From the NCBI GenBank assembly GCA_027487845.1, contig JAIYCV010000042.1:310001-374000 (forward strand): a DNA stretch of 64,000 nt, in the 5' to 3' direction. The DNA is from Flammeovirgaceae bacterium (GTDB lineage Bacteria; Bacteroidota; Bacteroidia; Cytophagales; Cyclobacteriaceae). This document shows positions 16,864-24,213 of this stretch, piece by piece (the first letter of the stretch is position 1; every line of letters begins with the position of its first letter). The notes under the pieces were generated by a model. The model made no database searches. It saw only the letters and a list, made by a program, of their open reading frames with translations, and was not told where the DNA came from. Both the position numbers and the translations under genes were made by a program.

Positions 16864-17076
16864 TTAACCGACTCGCGATCCAGTATATTGATTTTTGATA
16901 TTTAATTGGAAATATCTGCCTATCGAACCAGACATCATTTCATAGTAAACACCTTCAGGAACATCATAATATTGCCATACCTCCCCATTCTTTTTGAACT
17001 CAACCTCAAGCACAGAAGTTGCGGCATCATATCCGATGCTATTTGCCATTGTAGAGTCAACAATTTGTCTGTCCAT
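16864..17076 (-). CDS. KTSC-domain protein
   Basis: A 70-residue protein consisting entirely of one KTSC domain: VDSTMANSIGYDAATSVLEV, then a WQYYDVPEGVYYEM turn and GSIGRYFQLNIKNQY. KTSC domains are small beta-rich units of unknown function, sometimes attached to tRNA synthetases or nucleases. Its ATG is 5 nt after the herA stop codon, so it is probably the last gene of the R-M/SIR2/HerA operon. Whether it is a working part of that system is not known. The family call is good; any role is open. Confidence 0.8.
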   Translation of the reverse strand: MDRQIVDSTMANSIGYDAATSVLEVEFKKNGEVWQYYDVPEGVYYEMMSGSIGRYFQLNIKNQYTGSRVG

Positions 17077-17081
17077 TTTAA

Positions 17082-18851
17082 TTATGATTTTTGTTGGCGA
17101 ATCCGTGTTACGATTGATTTATAGTTCTCCGGGTTTTCTGGATGGACTTTTTTCCATGCATCTACTAATTTAGGATCGTCACTTGTTGGTCTAGGGTTAT
17201 GCAATTTGATTCTGACACGTGAGGGAATTTTAATAGCTTCTCCAACTACTATTGCTTCACCAGTTCTCAAAGCAGGTAGTAAATCAATTAAACTATTTAG
17301 GTTGTCAGGCGCAGAAGACTTTACAATTGACTGGTCGCCTGAATTTGTAAGGCGCAAAGCTACAAATGTTCCAACCTGTGCTAAAATAGTTTCGGAAATT
17401 TCAGATGGTCGTTGTGAAATCACTAATGCACCTAAACCAAATTTTCTACCTTCTTTGAAAACTTGTTCAACGGCTTGCTTTGAATAACTACTGCTGTCAT
17501 TTTTGTTTAGATAGGTGTGCGCTTCCTCGAATGCAAGCAAAAGTGGTCTTTGCTTTCCTGTGTAGTTTTCATGTCCGCCCCAAAACATACTGTCATAAAC
17601 AAAACGAGTAATTAGCCCAACGGTAATGTCAAGTACTTCAAAAGGGACCCCGCTTAAATCTAAAATTGCAAGTTTCTTGTCGCTACCAATCCAATCATTG
17701 AGTAGTTGATGTAAGTCCTGTGTTCCTACAACTCCATTATAGCCGCCAGGATTAAATAGAAAATCATAGCGCCCGTCTTTTAATCTTGCTAATATTTTTT
17801 TCTCGTATGTAATAAACTCTTTGTGTTGCGAAACATGAGGGGACTTATCATTAAATGTGGTTTGATGGGAAGTAAATTTAGCACCGATTAAATTTTCAGC
17901 ATCACCATCATTTTCCTTTACAGCATTGTCTTTGTTCTGTTCATCCTTCTTAGTCGTAGTAAAACTTGCATTAAGCCACCAATTCATTTCATGCCACAGT
18001 TTTCTTGCACTAAAAGGAATTGGGGAATCTGCAGTTATTAGGTTTACATCAACTTCGCCTGCTTCAAGAATAAAATTTTCTTTCTTAAAATTCGTTACCA
18101 AATCTCTAAACATTCGGTAATCAATTCTCTGATCGTCTGTTGGTTTTGCCCCAACAAGAAAATATGCTAACTCGTCAAAGTTCATTAACCAAAACGGAAT
18201 GAATAAAGGATTGTCCGCATCATTTATTTTAAAAACTTTTGCTTCGGGAAATGCAGTACCATATTCTCCATGTGGGTCAACTAAAATAACTCTTGAACCA
18301 ACATAGTCAGTGAGAATTGCTTTAAGAATACCTACTGTAGTATTTGATTTTCCACTTCCTGTTGAACCGAGTATAGCGCAATGGCGTAAAACTAATTTAT
18401 GGATATTGACATAAACTGAAAGATTCTCAGACGATGAGTGCTTTCCAATTTCAATTGAGCCGTTATCTCGGTTTCCGTAAATATCAAAGAGGTCTTTCTC
18501 AATTACTAAATGTACTTCGTCATTTATCGTTGGATAAGTTCCAATTCCTTTTTCAAAATCATCGTCTCCAATTTTCTCTCCTACAAGTTGCACATATAAA
18601 AATCGTGAACCGAAATTATATCTAACTATTGTTTCATCTCCTTTGCTTGGTGTATTGCTAACAGAAGAAACAATTCCGTAAATTGTAATGTTGCCTATTG
18701 GCATTTTTACAAAGGTTCCTATCTGCCCGATTTTGTATAACCTCCCATTTATGATTGGTGCAGCTGAAGGAATGTCGTTTGACACTTCAACTTCAACCGT
18801 GCCTGAATCAACACGAATGATTTTACCTAAGTATGTGATGTCAGTTGTCAT
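17082..18851 (-). CDS. HerA-like hexameric ATPase/translocase, partner of SIR2
   Basis: A 589-residue HerA/FtsK-superfamily ATPase. Residues 1-150 form the HAS-barrel-type N-terminal domain. Walker A is GSTGSGKSN (162-170), followed by VDPHGEYG (191-198). Walker B is LLLAFEEAH (437-445), and ISQRPSEIS (478-486) is the sensor region. A charged insert near residues 300-325 (KKDEQNKDNAVKENDGDAEN) looks disordered. The start overlaps the SIR2 stop by 4 nt (ATGA). In characterised SIR2-HerA systems the HerA hexamer assembles with SIR2 and the complex degrades NAD and nucleic acid on phage infection. That activity is inferred here from family and gene order. Confidence 0.92.
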   Translation of the reverse strand: MTTDITYLGKIIRVDSGTVEVEVSNDIPSAAPIINGRLYKIGQIGTFVKMPIGNITIYGIVSSVSNTPSKGDETIVRYNFGSRFLYVQLVGEKIGDDDFEKGIGTYPTINDEVHLVIEKDLFDIYGNRDNGSIEIGKHSSSENLSVYVNIHKLVLRHCAILGSTGSGKSNTTVGILKAILTDYVGSRVILVDPHGEYGTAFPEAKVFKINDADNPLFIPFWLMNFDELAYFLVGAKPTDDQRIDYRMFRDLVTNFKKENFILEAGEVDVNLITADSPIPFSARKLWHEMNWWLNASFTTTKKDEQNKDNAVKENDGDAENLIGAKFTSHQTTFNDKSPHVSQHKEFITYEKKILARLKDGRYDFLFNPGGYNGVVGTQDLHQLLNDWIGSDKKLAILDLSGVPFEVLDITVGLITRFVYDSMFWGGHENYTGKQRPLLLAFEEAHTYLNKNDSSSYSKQAVEQVFKEGRKFGLGALVISQRPSEISETILAQVGTFVALRLTNSGDQSIVKSSAPDNLNSLIDLLPALRTGEAIVVGEAIKIPSRVRIKLHNPRPTSDDPKLVDAWKKVHPENPENYKSIVTRIRQQKS

Positions 18852-20041
18852 TTTACGATTGATTCAATTGCATCTTTTTTTCCTGAATTTGTAACTAGAA
18901 AATTCACGAGCGAATTGAAGTCGCCAAGAATTAGTTTGTTGTCTGCTTCATTCCAATAGTGGTCAAACTTTTCTGTCGATGTTTTAAATTCTGTTTTTGA
19001 AAATTCCCACTCACCCAAATTCCCATTGAAGATTGCCTTCTTAGGTCCAAAAACATTTAGGTTCATGTAGGAAGAAGTTATTTTATGTAAGCTCTCAACT
19101 TCCGTGTCTGTATAGAAAAACACTAAAACTGAAAGGCGGTTGTTCTGCCGAAGGCAGTTGAAAATTATTTCATTTATATGCTGGTCCGAAAAAGAATAAC
19201 CAGCAAAGATGAAAAGCAACTCGCCATTCAAAAGATAGTTTTTCAATCTGTCAAAGTATGCGATGAAAGGTTGTTTCCTTGATGAATCATATTTTTCTTT
19301 AGAAGGATAAATTACTAACTCGTCCTTTTCATCTTCAATTTTTTCAATCTTTCCTATTCTAACAATCTTCGGTGATTTTGATTTTGTATCTTTTTTCCAA
19401 AACCAACTTAATGAACCATGGATTTTCCAGAGCCGAATCCAGTTTTGTGTCAAATCGTCTTTTGTTACCAACTTGTCAATGCTCTCTTGCCAAAAGAAAG
19501 GTTCGTAAGAACCAACAAATCCGTCAAAGTAGGGGATATGACTTGATTCGAGAGATTTTTCAATTATCAAATCATAGTTGGTTGTAAAAACTTCCTTTGA
19601 AAAATCTCGGTTAAGAATACTCAACCATGCAAAAAACTTTTTGGTGTTGTCAAGGACTGCGACATTTTCTTTTTCTAAAATGATGTTGTAAATTTTTGTG
19701 CAAATTTCTTTGTCAAGTTTTTTTGCTGCTTCTCCACTTACGCCTTGATATTCTTTTAATGATTCTCCTGTCAGCTCTCGTATTCTTCTGATATGATTGA
19801 GTATGTCTTCAATGTTTACATTTCTTGGTTCAACTGCAGGGATTAAATCTGCTTTAATTAAATCGAAGTTTGCTTTGAAGTCGCCAATTAATAATGCTTC
19901 AATGCGGTCTGTAAGTTGTGCTACATTTGGAATACCTAAAGCACATGAAGTTCCTGCACCAAAGAAAAAGCCAATGTTCTTGGAATATGAAATATGGTTT
20001 TTAAGTTCTCGTATTTCTCCTACTAAATTTATTTTTTCCAT
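18848..20041 (-). CDS. SIR2-family protein of a SIR2-HerA defence pair
   Basis: A 397-residue protein from the ATG at 20041; a TTG 11 codons upstream would overlap the restriction gene. The NAD-binding SIR2 core is intact: FFFGAGTS (G28-S32), TTNYD (N155, D157), and the catalytic-site His in WKIHGSLSW (H208). FAGYSFSDQHINEIIF closes the fold. There are no zinc-binding Cys pairs, so it is a defence-type SIR2 (NADase) and not a protein deacetylase. It lies 19 nt after the type IIG gene and overlaps herA by 4 nt. Inferred role: NAD depletion or nucleic-acid cleavage on infection, together with HerA. Confidence 0.9.
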   Translation of the reverse strand: MEKINLVGEIRELKNHISYSKNIGFFFGAGTSCALGIPNVAQLTDRIEALLIGDFKANFDLIKADLIPAVEPRNVNIEDILNHIRRIRELTGESLKEYQGVSGEAAKKLDKEICTKIYNIILEKENVAVLDNTKKFFAWLSILNRDFSKEVFTTNYDLIIEKSLESSHIPYFDGFVGSYEPFFWQESIDKLVTKDDLTQNWIRLWKIHGSLSWFWKKDTKSKSPKIVRIGKIEKIEDEKDELVIYPSKEKYDSSRKQPFIAYFDRLKNYLLNGELLFIFAGYSFSDQHINEIIFNCLRQNNRLSVLVFFYTDTEVESLHKITSSYMNLNVFGPKKAIFNGNLGEWEFSKTEFKTSTEKFDHYWNEADNKLILGDFNSLVNFLVTNSGKKDAIESIVK

Positions 20042-20060
20042 AAAAATGGATTGTTTTAAA

Positions 20061-23000
20061 TTATGTTTTTTCAATAATTTTTATCTCCTCTTCTGTCAAC
20101 CCATAAGCCTGATAAACCAGTCTATCAATTTTAACTTCTAATTTATCCCCACCAGAGCTAGTTATTTGGTCAAGTATTCGATCTACTAATTTAGTTATCT
20201 CATCGTACTTACCTAGATTTTTCGGAATCGGCAGCTCCTTGATATCATTTGGATTTAACTTCGGAAAAATGTCTTTTCCGAAGTTCGATAGTGTGTATTT
20301 TCCATACCAGCTAACGAGCTTTGAGTTTACTATTCCAAGCAAATACTTTAAATCATTTTTGTTTTTTTCAAATGGTTTAAATGGAGAAATGCTATGACCA
20401 TGATAGTACAACTCTGCTGTAATTGCTGCTTGAATTCTTTTCCCTTTTCCTGGTACTTCTCTAAATAAAATTCTTGAACCTTCAAAGAATCTTTTTTCAC
20501 GGGGAGCTGCAAGCCAGTCGCCATAACTTAACCATTTGTTGTCCCAAACTATTGAATATCTATTCAGGTTCTTGCCTTCAAGCCACCTTCCACAAGTGTT
20601 ATCCTTTTTAAAGTCAAAATGAAAAGCACGATTTTCTATTATTTCTTTCGACTGACCTTGGTAGCTATCGTAAGGTGTTATTCCCTGTATTACATCACCA
20701 AACCCAGAAAGATAGACTGATTTCAATCTAATTTTGTCAATAACATTTTTAATTTCTGGAGAAAGACGATACTCAATTTTAAAGGTTTCCTTATCGATCC
20801 ATTCAAATTTATTGGCTGAAAACCTGAGTGGCTCATTAATGATTAATAACTCATTTTTAGGATTCGATTTTTGAATTTGAAATGATAATGTATTAACAAC
20901 CGCTTCATCAAATACCCCCTCTCCATGAATATAAATTCTCTTTAGATCATTTTGCTGAGAAACAATTGAACGAATAGGGTGACAATTATCTAATGTTAAC
21001 CACAAAATTGGAGTTATATACTCAAGAAAGCCATGTGGTTTTAAAATACTCAGTCCTAACTCGATAAAGTATACATAACTGTCATACTTGTATAGATAGG
21101 ACTTGTAGTTATCACGAATGTATTTCTTCTCTTGGTTTTTAAATTCAGCACCATAAGGTGGGTTTCCAATTAACGCATCAAAGCCAGTAAAACTGCCATT
21201 ATTATCTAAAACCTCGGGAAACTCAAACCGCCATTCAAATGCATCCTTGTAGATAGCACTACTTTTTATTTCTTCAATCTCTGTTGACAGCTTGTTAATC
21301 GCAACTTCAAGTGTCTCCTTTCGCTTATTACGTTCCTTTTTTTCTTTCTCACTAGGTTCAAACACACTTGCCTGGTTGAGCAAGTTGTACAATTCACCAC
21401 CAAGTTTATTTTTCTTCAATAACAAAGGGTCATTCTTTCCAATCTCGGTACGAAAGTCTGTCTTAATCTGGTTTATTAGCTTTTCAAATCCTCGCTTCTC
21501 TTCTTTATCACTTGCGTTTTTATAACTGTTTACAAATGAGCGGTAATCGTCAATACCGTATTTTATACTCTTCAATGCCTTACTCAAATCAGCATCCAGA
21601 GCAAAACGGCTAATCAATGAATTACCCTGCTTTATATTGATGTCAATATTGGGCAGTGTTTCTAACTCTGCATACTTGCTATCGGCAGTATAATAAGCGT
21701 TCTTCAACAACTCAATCCATAAACGAAGGCGGCATATCTTAACTGAGTTAGGGTTAATGTCAACGCCAAAAAGGCAGTTCTCAATAATGGTCTGCTTTTC
21801 GTGGAACAAAGCCTCCTGTACGCGTTGGCTCTCTTTATTGCCGGGCTTATATTCAAAGAATTCGGAGTGGTCTATTGAAATAATTAATTCATCATTGATA
21901 ACTTCAACAGAATATCCGCGCAAGACTTTACCGCTTCTATCGGAGAGTATATTTAATTCAGATTTTATGGCAATGATTTCATTCAATGCTGAAACTAAGA
22001 AGTGCCCTGAGCCAACAGCCGGGTCGCAAATCTTTAGGCTGTTAATAATAGCATTGGCCTCTTTTATATCTTTTATCTCATTGTATAGCTGATCAAACGA
22101 TTCTAACTTCCATCCCTTGGCTTCGTTGAATTTCTGCACAACAGCCCTGCGTATGGTTTCGCGGCACATGTACATGGTAATGAAGCCGGGCGTAAAGAAA
22201 GAACCGTCTTTGTAGCCATTGATCTTTTCAAATATAAGACCCAGCACAGAGGCATTGATCAACCCTTTATTTTCTTCTTGAATTTCTTCTTTGCCTTCCG
22301 AAGCAAAATCATACGCATCAAGAAATTCAAACAAGTATTGCAGCGTAGGCATATCACCGTCACGCTTTTTACCACCTTCGCTTTTTAAAACAGTATTTGA
22401 TGCAAGTTTCAATCTAAGACTATCATCCAAGCTTTTGATAAGGATTGAATCTTCTTCCAATGGAGTGAAGTCGAACAGCGAGCTATTCAAATAGGGCACG
22501 TGCGCATATTTCTTTCTGATGGCCTCCGGGCGCTTATCTGAAACTTTAGCAAGCACATCAAAGAAAAGCTTGTTCAGCTGATCGAAGTTGGATTGGTTTT
22601 TAAAATCAAGAAACCGATACTCCTTATCACCGCCATGATATATTAGCAATTGCCCTTCCAGGAGTTTAAGGAAAAGCACTCGGTTAATCCACGTGATACA
22701 AAGCTCCAAGGCCACATTGAATAGCCTTTCATCTTCTGTCGCTCCAAATGATTTTCCTCCTTCAGGTAGTTTGCGAAGTTTATCGTCAGACACAAGAGTA
22801 GCAATGGCATTTTCTAGCAGTGAAGCGGGGTCTGGTTTCTCTTTGCGCTGAATTATCTTTTTTCCTCCATCCTTTTTTTCTTCAAGACCAATGATGTGGA
22901 GAAGCTCGCTATAAAATTTGGTGTCGAGTGAGTTACTGTCATTAGCAAAGGGCTGCTTCAATAAATGAGCAGGCGACAAAAACTTAAAGACTGGAATTAG

Positions 23001-23651
23001 TTTATGATCATCAGCATTACTTTTATTAGCTGCTACTTTCTCGATTTCCCGTAAATCAAACTTGGTAAATGTGATCTCCTCTTTTAAGGACTTAAGGAAC
23101 TTAAATGCGATATCGGTGTAAAAGAAATCGGTTGTGTCGCCAGACTTTCGCCCATTCTTCCAATCGTTAAAATCCTTTGTCAATCCATGGTCTTTGTAAA
23201 ACAACTTTTCGAATACCAAGGCATCGAAAACAAACCACTCATACATATTCGTGGCAACCAAGAATTTTATATCGTTGTTGCCCTCTTCAATACGTTCGCG
23301 CAGGTAGTAAAGAATTAGCTCATGCATAGCCTTTGCATTCAGATTTTTGCTGCTCACCATGTCAGGTGAGTTTGGCCGCTTAGCTTCAATTATCACTACC
23401 GGCTTCTTATCCTCATAGATGGCTAGGTCTATGCGGCCTTTGGTGTTGATCTGGTTCTTTCCTTGGTAGTAAGTTTCGTAAAGAAATTTAGTGACGTTAT
23501 TCTTTACGTGCTCCTCACTCTCTTTTTCATTGATGCTTTCCAGAAACTCCGCGAGTTTTGATTTGAATAACTCAATATCCTTACGAGCTACCTTTTCCTT
23601 TCGGTATGCCTTATTTAGGGATTGATTTGGAGACAGAGAGTGATAGACCAT
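20061..23651 (-). CDS. Type IIG restriction enzyme/adenine methyltransferase, single chain
   Basis: A 1196-residue protein from the ATG at 23651. Three modules are seen. Residues 35-190 are an HsdR_N-like nuclease with the PD-(D/E)xK set RIDLAIY...IIEAKRPN (D75, E89, K91). The middle is an N6-adenine methyltransferase with SAM motif DPAVGSGHF (543-551) and catalytic NPPY (830-833). The last 300 residues look like a TaqI-C target-recognition domain (GRWLEGKNLNRY, ILFREVPGKG, LLGIVNSKL, FPKLNPNDIKELPIP). Cleavage, methylation and recognition therefore sit on one chain. It is the first gene of the operon with SIR2 and HerA, and its recognition sequence cannot be predicted. Confidence 0.92.
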   Translation of the reverse strand: MVYHSLSPNQSLNKAYRKEKVARKDIELFKSKLAEFLESINEKESEEHVKNNVTKFLYETYYQGKNQINTKGRIDLAIYEDKKPVVIIEAKRPNSPDMVSSKNLNAKAMHELILYYLRERIEEGNNDIKFLVATNMYEWFVFDALVFEKLFYKDHGLTKDFNDWKNGRKSGDTTDFFYTDIAFKFLKSLKEEITFTKFDLREIEKVAANKSNADDHKLIPVFKFLSPAHLLKQPFANDSNSLDTKFYSELLHIIGLEEKKDGGKKIIQRKEKPDPASLLENAIATLVSDDKLRKLPEGGKSFGATEDERLFNVALELCITWINRVLFLKLLEGQLLIYHGGDKEYRFLDFKNQSNFDQLNKLFFDVLAKVSDKRPEAIRKKYAHVPYLNSSLFDFTPLEEDSILIKSLDDSLRLKLASNTVLKSEGGKKRDGDMPTLQYLFEFLDAYDFASEGKEEIQEENKGLINASVLGLIFEKINGYKDGSFFTPGFITMYMCRETIRRAVVQKFNEAKGWKLESFDQLYNEIKDIKEANAIINSLKICDPAVGSGHFLVSALNEIIAIKSELNILSDRSGKVLRGYSVEVINDELIISIDHSEFFEYKPGNKESQRVQEALFHEKQTIIENCLFGVDINPNSVKICRLRLWIELLKNAYYTADSKYAELETLPNIDINIKQGNSLISRFALDADLSKALKSIKYGIDDYRSFVNSYKNASDKEEKRGFEKLINQIKTDFRTEIGKNDPLLLKKNKLGGELYNLLNQASVFEPSEKEKKERNKRKETLEVAINKLSTEIEEIKSSAIYKDAFEWRFEFPEVLDNNGSFTGFDALIGNPPYGAEFKNQEKKYIRDNYKSYLYKYDSYVYFIELGLSILKPHGFLEYITPILWLTLDNCHPIRSIVSQQNDLKRIYIHGEGVFDEAVVNTLSFQIQKSNPKNELLIINEPLRFSANKFEWIDKETFKIEYRLSPEIKNVIDKIRLKSVYLSGFGDVIQGITPYDSYQGQSKEIIENRAFHFDFKKDNTCGRWLEGKNLNRYSIVWDNKWLSYGDWLAAPREKRFFEGSRILFREVPGKGKRIQAAITAELYYHGHSISPFKPFEKNKNDLKYLLGIVNSKLVSWYGKYTLSNFGKDIFPKLNPNDIKELPIPKNLGKYDEITKLVDRILDQITSSGGDKLEVKIDRLVYQAYGLTEEEIKIIEKT

Positions 23652-23993
23652 CAACTTAACACTATTCAGCTTGTTGATGCTAAATATAGCGAATTAGTTA
23701 GTTTGGGTAGTTAGCCTTGCGTTATTTACGATGGATTAGTGCTGATTGCTGGTAGTTAAGATGGAATTCTTAAAATTGACTTTTTATGATCGCGCTTAAG
23801 CATTCCTGGTACAGCATCAGTTGGATTAGCCGGTAGTTTTCCAATGTTTATCGGAAACACCTCTCTCTACTCAGTTGAAAAGAGAGGGGTTCGATTTTAA
23901 GATAATTCGCTATAATTGGAAACCGTTGACACAATCTTTGGCACAAGAGGAAGAAAAAAGCTCTGTAAATCAAAGCTTTAGGATGGAAAAAAG
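23652..23993. other. Non-coding stretch between the restriction gene and tRNA-Leu
   Basis: About 340 bp with no convincing gene. On the minus strand a hairpin with 7-bp arms, CCTCTCT/AGAGAGG, lies near 23870-23898, followed by a 34-codon open stretch ending near 23760 without a good start. It is the likely promoter region of the defence operon and, lying just past the tRNA-Leu 3' end, is where a tRNA-targeted element would join the chromosome. No copy of the tRNA 3' end was found at the other side of the island. Confidence 0.5.
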
Positions 23994-24079
23994 TACCCGG
24001 GGCGGGAATTGAACCCGCACGACTATTACTAGCCACAGGATTTTAAGTCCTGCGTGTCTACCAATTCCACCACCCGGGC
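23994..24079 (-). tRNA. tRNA-Leu (anticodon TAA)
   Basis: An 86-nt cloverleaf read on the minus strand, starting GCCCGGGTGG. The anticodon stem-loop is CAGGA-CTTAAAA-TCCTG with anticodon TAA. There is a long variable arm, as expected for class II tRNA-Leu, and a T-arm GCGGG-TTCAATT-CCCGC. The acceptor closes with a G-T pair, and CCA is not encoded. Confidence 0.95.

Positions 24080-24139: not shown

Positions 24140-24213
<74 letters not shown>

Follow-up and report, generated by a model that had tools for sequence, protein, structure and literature searches.

A predicted three-gene SIR2-HerA-KTSC system beside a type IIG restriction-methyltransferase gene in a Flammeovirgaceae bacterium

The stretch of DNA analyzed here (the window) comprises 64,000 nucleotides (nt) of a Flammeovirgaceae bacterium (contig JAIYCV010000042.1, positions 310,001 to 374,000). 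Between its positions 16864 and 23651 it contains four open frames, all on the minus strand: one for a type IIG restriction-methyltransferase (IIG), one for a SIR2-like protein, one for a HerA-type ATPase, and one for a small protein with a KTSC domain (Table 1). An earlier note on this DNA had read these genes as one operon, in which a SIR2-HerA defence pair might act jointly with the restriction-modification (R-M) enzyme in front and the KTSC protein behind. The frames confirmed the places of the four genes and their spacing: a gap of 19 nt between IIG and SIR2, an overlap of 4 nt between SIR2 and HerA, and a gap of 5 nt between HerA and KTSC. Families were named by Pfam, PADLOC, and NCBIfam searches of the window proteins.

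Table 1. Features of the SIR2-HerA-KTSC locus and its surroundings (window positions; aa, amino acids).
Feature	Position	Strand	Basis and remarks
TM0106-family RecB-like nuclease + helicase, 1140 aa	12819..16241	+, convergent	TIGR03491, E 1e-73; old IIG neighbour
dinD-like gene, shortened, 125 aa	16273..16650	-	NCBIfam PRK11525, E 8.2e-37; between cassette and TM0106
KTSC-domain protein, 70 aa	16864..17076	-	PF13619, E 1e-19; without PADLOC model; predicted third SIR2-HerA component
HerA-type ATPase, 589 aa	17082..18851	-	DUF87 + HerA_C; PADLOC HerA PDLC04105, E 2.3e-154
SIR2-like NADase (predicted), 397 aa from ATG at 20041	18848..20041	-	SIR2_2; PADLOC SIR2 PDLC04093, E 6e-133
Type IIG restriction-methyltransferase, single chain, 1196 aa	20061..23651	-	PADLOC REase_MTase_IIG PDLC03612, E 4.7e-241; judged independent neighbour
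tRNA-Leu (taa)	23993..24079	-	Synteny marker upstream of IIG
tRNA-Gly (gcc)	24140..24213	-	Synteny marker upstream of IIG

The SIR2 protein carries the motifs TTNYD and KIHGS, with the conserved Asn and His, in alignment with the solved SIR2 chain 8w9l. HerA, whose frame adjoins that of SIR2, contains the Walker-type motifs GSTGSGKS and LAFEEAH, and the window copy was the only HerA match in the whole genome. Together with the PADLOC and Pfam matches, their presence in intact form supported the prediction that SIR2 and HerA are a defence pair. The pair resembles the known SIR2-HerA system (Gao_19, Nezha) in that SIR2 is followed by an overlapping HerA gene, in its conserved motifs, and in matching the PADLOC models for both proteins. 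The accessible part of the literature describes that system as consisting of two genes, whereas the window has a third one, KTSC, directly behind HerA. According to the available text of one study, SIR2-HerA protects Vibrio cholerae in an NADase-dependent manner and forms a complex of 12 SIR2 and 6 HerA subunits (PMC11559045). The IIG protein combines a nuclease, an adenine methylase, and a target recognition or specificity domain in one chain (Pfam domains DUF7149, DUF7814, Eco57I, and TaqI_C). Its nuclease motif (D76, E90, and K92) is identical in the 12 aligned rows covering these positions, the window included, and the methylase motifs are DPAVGSGHF (residues 544-552) and NPPYG (831-835); the target recognition region was divergent in all aligned relatives. 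The predicted start codon is an ATG, with an alternative TTG at 23654 being possible. As a single chain with a nuclease motif, an adenine methylase, and a TaqI-like specificity domain, the protein is like other type IIG R-M enzymes (PDLC03612; Eco57I-like), differing from them only in its unusual position ahead of SIR2-HerA.

In a crude scan, the gap between IIG and SIR2 held no terminator-like site on the minus strand, and some such sites lay inside genes. Promoter-like sites in a sigma-70 scan were at chance level (22 versus 22.5 in shuffled sequences), and the Bacteroidota-type promoter pattern was matched three times, versus 7.4 times on average in shuffled sequences. A single transcript for the four genes is plausible.

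The closest solved structures pointed to a role for the small gene. In the Protein Data Bank (PDB), the best match of HerA was 8wiv (E 5.1e-117) and that of SIR2 was 8w9l (E 5.3e-42). HerA matched 8wiv, 8wj3, and 8wk0, SIR2 matched 8w9l, 8w9x, and 8yqf, and four entries (8wld, 8woc, 8wod, and 8wof) were found in both lists. The HerA chain of 8wiv has 696 residues, of which 7-604 match the window HerA and 629-696 match the window KTSC protein (E 9.5e-11). The solved complex (8wiv and the related entries), which we take to be that of Paenibacillus sp. 453MF, is thus the top sequence match for both SIR2 and HerA of the window and also contains a KTSC domain, which is fused to HerA there and is a separate protein of 70 aa in the window. 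Liao et al., in 2024, reportedly found that a C-terminal extension stabilises the HerA spiral. Since the closest solved HerA carries KTSC at its C-terminus, the window KTSC protein resembles that C-terminal domain in free-standing form. A single-sequence fold prediction of KTSC gave a mean predicted local distance difference test (pLDDT) score of 63 and no structural match at E <= 0.001. According to the available part of a review, a C-terminal hook such as HerA-DUF4297 has was not observed in SIR2-HerA (PMC12198126).

The linkage of KTSC to SIR2-HerA was then followed through other genomes, with a profile made from six KTSC proteins serving for detection. The survey of the phylum took in 395 genomes, with SIR2 matches in 45; 40 of the 47 SIR2 places outside the window were examined, the seven left out being weak (E 5.6e-9 or worse). 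Among the 12 strongest places (E <= 1e-44), KTSC lay right behind HerA in 10; in the remaining two, the contig ends just after the start of KTSC (L072) or HerA is truncated and lacks KTSC (L076). None of the 28 weaker places had KTSC. Within the family, 11 loci had a recognised SIR2, a twelfth (L057) giving none, and KTSC was present in the three closest of them and absent from the other eight. Among plasmids, 18 loci were inspected because of strong SIR2 or HerA matches, and each of them had KTSC, including one from the archaeon Natrinema; these were picked among the best matches, and 381 plasmid records have a SIR2 match, most of them unopened. The closest relative found is a SIR2-HerA-KTSC locus from within the phylum (L066, in genome G318; SIR2 70% and HerA 76% identical), followed by loci on enterobacterial and Aeromonas plasmids (SIR2 and HerA 66% and 71% identical), and there was no IIG match in the examined stretches around any of these.

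A HerA tree of 62 rows gave the same picture: a single branch with support 100/99 separated 26 rows with KTSC behind HerA from 34 without it. The incomplete loci L072 and L076 are present in this tree without a label; left out of it were L003 and L004 (near copies), L046, L067, and L164 (HerA pieces of <480 aa), L092 and L097 (no HerA), L169, and the PDB chain (8wiv). The KTSC side of the tree covers Bacteroidota, plasmids of Pseudomonadota, and one haloarchaeon. KTSC behind HerA is therefore a mark of one HerA clade, and SIR2-HerA-KTSC is, as far as sequence can tell, a conserved three-gene system.

Instead, KTSC could be no more than co-transcribed with HerA, either as a passenger or as an unrelated RNA-binding protein. 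The accessible text of PMC7824862 names KTSC a lysyl-tRNA synthetase RNA-binding domain, and KTSC also occurs in other contexts, namely in a J-domain-like protein of the same genome and with ThiF genes on haloarchaeal plasmids. However, the linkage tracks one HerA clade with no intact exception in the sample and crosses phyla and domains, and KTSC is fused to HerA in the solved complex. Moreover, in a plasmid locus where an insertion splits HerA (L164/L174), KTSC has remained with the 3' piece of HerA. Taken together, these results make this alternative very unlikely.

The IIG gene behaved differently. The genome scan yielded 15 loci with IIG relatives, in two of which (L030 and L031) the contig ends inside the IIG gene, and SIR2 was nearby in only one of the 15 (L025). 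Seven further IIG loci of the family had no SIR2 or HerA match (0/7). In 98 genomes of the family, SIR2 was found in 12 and IIG in 19, and the two occurred together only in the window; two genomes of the same genus (G017 and G094) had neither a SIR2 nor an IIG match at the limits used. In the 395 genomes of the phylum, SIR2 was present in 45, IIG in 39, both in at least eight, and the two together in at least two (the window and G128), these co-occurrence counts being lower bounds with at most two IIG and four SIR2 candidates scored per genome. On plasmids, the 16 records with the IIG family (E <= 1e-40) and the 32 records with HerA (E <= 1e-75) did not overlap. One of the IIG plasmids, of 15.5 kb and from Bacteroides, had no other defence gene annotated in the 9.6 kb inspected.

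One of the loci of the genome scan, L036, is from a metagenome-assembled genome of the Cyclobacteriaceae. It consists of tRNA-Gly (gcc), tRNA-Leu (taa), IIG and, 5 nt further on, a convergent TM0106 gene (69% identical), beyond which lie relatives of three genes that the window has at 0.7-5.8 kb. It is thus the same place without SIR2-HerA-KTSC. In another locus (L033), IIG also adjoins TM0106, with no SIR2 or HerA match. Because the IIG-TM0106 pair recurs in L033, and because most IIG relatives have no SIR2-HerA nearby, an insertion of the SIR2-HerA-KTSC cassette in the window would explain the difference better than its loss from L036. No convincing flanking repeats marking such an insertion were found at the locus. 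That the 3' half of the IIG gene was imported together with SIR2-HerA, both being AT-rich, was also considered. This was judged unneeded, since three of the five relatives compared (L025, L036, and L037) likewise have a clearly AT-richer C-terminal part; in L026 this part is slightly AT-richer, and in L033 it is not.

R-M genes in general were compared between SIR2-HerA loci and loci of a control nuclease, the OLD-like TOPRIM family PF20469. From the 51 SIR2 loci entered, L092 and L097 were dropped (no HerA), leaving 49, and L057 was not used. From the 81 control places listed, 40 were used and one of these (L118) was dropped, no frame covering the match, leaving 39. Gene calling followed a greedy longest-frame rule, so that small genes may be missed or false, and eight of the 12 seeds for R-M detection came from SIR2 loci, which favours the SIR2 side. 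With a gap limit of 250 nt, an R-M gene was in the operon in 11 of 49 SIR2-HerA loci and in 7 of 39 OLD-TOPRIM loci (Fisher p 0.79), and other gap limits gave p values of 0.44-1.00. R-M genes anywhere in the stretch were found in 15/49 versus 7/39 loci (p 0.22), the control count being lowered by the exclusion of L118, which holds an EcoKI-R-like gene. Within the KTSC clade, the operon contained an R-M gene in 1 of 15 loci at 250 nt and in 3 of 15 at 300 nt (L071, L072, and L073). In these small samples there was accordingly no recurrent linkage of IIG and SIR2-HerA beyond the general clustering of defence genes, and a modest excess of R-M genes beside SIR2-HerA is compatible with their size. 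The control nuclease and IIG were both present in 9 of the 395 phylum genomes, and in two of them (G344 and G379) on the same contig within ~3 kb, so that IIG keeps other defence company at a rate similar to that with SIR2-HerA. In these two places (G344:C1:487261-493360 and G379:C13:1879-8125), the IIG family gene lies ~2-3 kb from the OLD-like TOPRIM gene and on the same strand.

Since the frequency of R-M genes beside SIR2-HerA is close to that of the control, an arrangement like that of the window is common and gives no sign of a special link. The IIG gene is most likely an older, independent neighbour and not a functional partner. The proposal of the earlier note was therefore only partly sustained. 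KTSC belongs with SIR2-HerA, as its clade-wide linkage indicates, and it is not the unusual addition it had been taken for, because its presence sets one HerA clade apart and it forms a domain of HerA in the solved complex. The part suggested for IIG, that of a first-line partner or trigger, was not supported, given its rare co-location with SIR2-HerA, the syntenic locus L036, and its equally frequent position beside an unrelated nuclease. The genome check that the note had suggested gave the same division, KTSC co-occurring with SIR2-HerA in one HerA clade and R-M genes not rising above the control.

Very probably, then, SIR2, HerA, and KTSC make up one autonomous anti-phage system, and the IIG beside it is an ordinary stand-alone R-M enzyme. 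By analogy with published relatives, from which NADase activity and complex formation are known, SIR2 as NADase and HerA as ring ATPase would assemble into a large complex, and infection would switch on the destruction of NAD+ and so block the phage. KTSC, as a separate subunit, would bind HerA at the place that the fused domain occupies in 8wiv, and would stabilise, control or gate the HerA ring, or contact DNA. The IIG would methylate and cut DNA by itself. The cassette would have come to lie between IIG and the convergent TM0106 gene, and may use the IIG promoter without sharing the function of IIG.

A different view is that the four genes form a joint system, with IIG as the first line and SIR2-HerA-KTSC as an NAD+-depleting back-up triggered by its cleavage products or by phage inhibition of IIG. 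It fits the tight, co-directional spacing of IIG and SIR2, and R-M genes do lie upstream of SIR2-HerA elsewhere: an N6_N4 methylase gene overlapping SIR2 by 4 nt (L072), two Eco57I enzymes (L103), HsdS (L056, L081, and L100), and a type III Res-like gene (L099). In the available text on Streptococcus thermophilus, SIR2/HerA is likewise described as inserted between or downstream of R/M systems (PMC11514479). The IIG family itself is upstream of SIR2 in two more loci (L025 and L079). However, R-M genes were not significantly enriched over the OLD-TOPRIM control despite seeds favouring the SIR2 side, the type of R-M partner differs between loci, the IIG family adjoins the control nuclease in two genomes too, and IIG relatives, L036 among them, mostly lack SIR2-HerA. 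With neither genome co-location nor the control comparison supporting it, the joint system was set aside as very unlikely. A speculative two-layer variant, in which IIG-made ends on unmodified phage DNA load the HerA ring, free KTSC gates it, and restriction licenses NAD+ depletion, is quite improbable; here restriction products, rather than a phage protein, would set off SIR2.

Several points nevertheless weigh against the reading of an autonomous three-gene system beside an independent IIG. The role of KTSC in its split form is a prediction from the fused one, and a profile from six proteins could miss very divergent KTSC proteins. In L036, the IIG is spread over two overlapping frames, so that this copy may be broken or misassembled. 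Co-occurrence of IIG and SIR2 may be undercounted because few candidates were scored per genome. L025 and L079 likewise have the IIG family upstream of SIR2, with both genes on one strand. In the former, IIG is followed after 157 nt by a gene for 191 aa and after a further 26 nt by SIR2, which is 63% identical over 123 residues before the contig ends; in the latter (from G128), three small genes stand between IIG and SIR2, the gaps from IIG up to SIR2 being 6, 21, 32, and 25 nt, and HerA comes next, this SIR2-HerA being distant and without KTSC. Finally, the tight spacing and the lack of an obvious terminator in the IIG-SIR2 gap are compatible with one transcript and with some joint function.

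The neighbour on the other side of the cassette was considered as well. The TM0106 gene, and not IIG, could be the functional neighbour and form a larger unit with SIR2-HerA-KTSC, as 4 of 32 plasmid records with this HerA have a TM0106 relative at a distance of up to ~6 kb from SIR2-HerA-KTSC (L157, L159, L161, and L169). That count is confounded by large plasmids rich in defence genes, and orientation and side vary. TM0106 also stands with IIG where no SIR2 or HerA match was found (L033 and L036), and elsewhere it accompanies McrBC, BREX, and other genes. Such a unit is extremely unlikely.

The window is thus predicted to hold a three-gene SIR2-HerA system in which one domain is split off, with an ordinary type IIG enzyme next to it. 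A published parallel lies in variants in which a HerA ATPase is coupled with a KTSC gene and has an endoDNase in lieu of a sirtuin, reported as an unpublished observation in the accessible text of PMC9503650; the coupling of HerA with KTSC is shared, whereas the window has a sirtuin in place of that endoDNase. In a literature search on KTSC with SIR2 and HerA, which left most subscription papers outside its coverage, no description of a three-gene SIR2-HerA-KTSC system was recognised. Expression studies of SIR2-HerA from the KTSC clade may lack a subunit if KTSC is omitted. The split form also offers a direct test of the function of the HerA C-terminal domain, since a separate KTSC can be deleted or supplied in trans. 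When R-M and NADase genes are tightly linked, this is common packing of defence genes, and alone is no proof of a joint mechanism.

The dinD-like gene at the edge of the cassette, compared with a model of 288 positions, aligned in two stretches, the best one placing residues 1-90 on model positions 1-91. It matches the start of the model and, by eye, its end, and is a probable internally deleted remnant. Small uncharacterised genes lie between IIG and SIR2 in L025 (13827-14402, 191 aa) and L079 (8559-10108; 249, 138, and 109 aa).

Some further observations concern KTSC and the relatives of the cassette. A second KTSC domain of this genome (L106 6571-7017, G000 contig C49) is part of a protein that, by eye, resembles a J-domain protein, and the only HerA match is on another contig. 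On haloarchaeal plasmids (H131, H132, and H140), the KTSC match covers a KTSC gene and an overlapping gene for a ThiF-family adenylyltransferase. The SIR2-HerA-KTSC genes of Citrobacter, Klebsiella, and Aeromonas plasmids (L002-L005) lie behind a recombinase family gene, with Tn3-family or other transposases near, and may travel as a transposon passenger. A peptide-pattern scan of viral contigs gave no close relatives of SIR2 or KTSC; a HerA-like protein of the Blautia phage Montmirail (ON453898.1 8767-10113, hit H31) is annotated as terminase large subunit. A Natrinema plasmid has a gene for an ADP-ribosylglycohydrolase directly behind KTSC (L156 9024-10001), and a Paracoccus plasmid has one a few kb upstream of the three genes (L162 1481-2506); these neighbours might relate to ADP-ribose products of SIR2.

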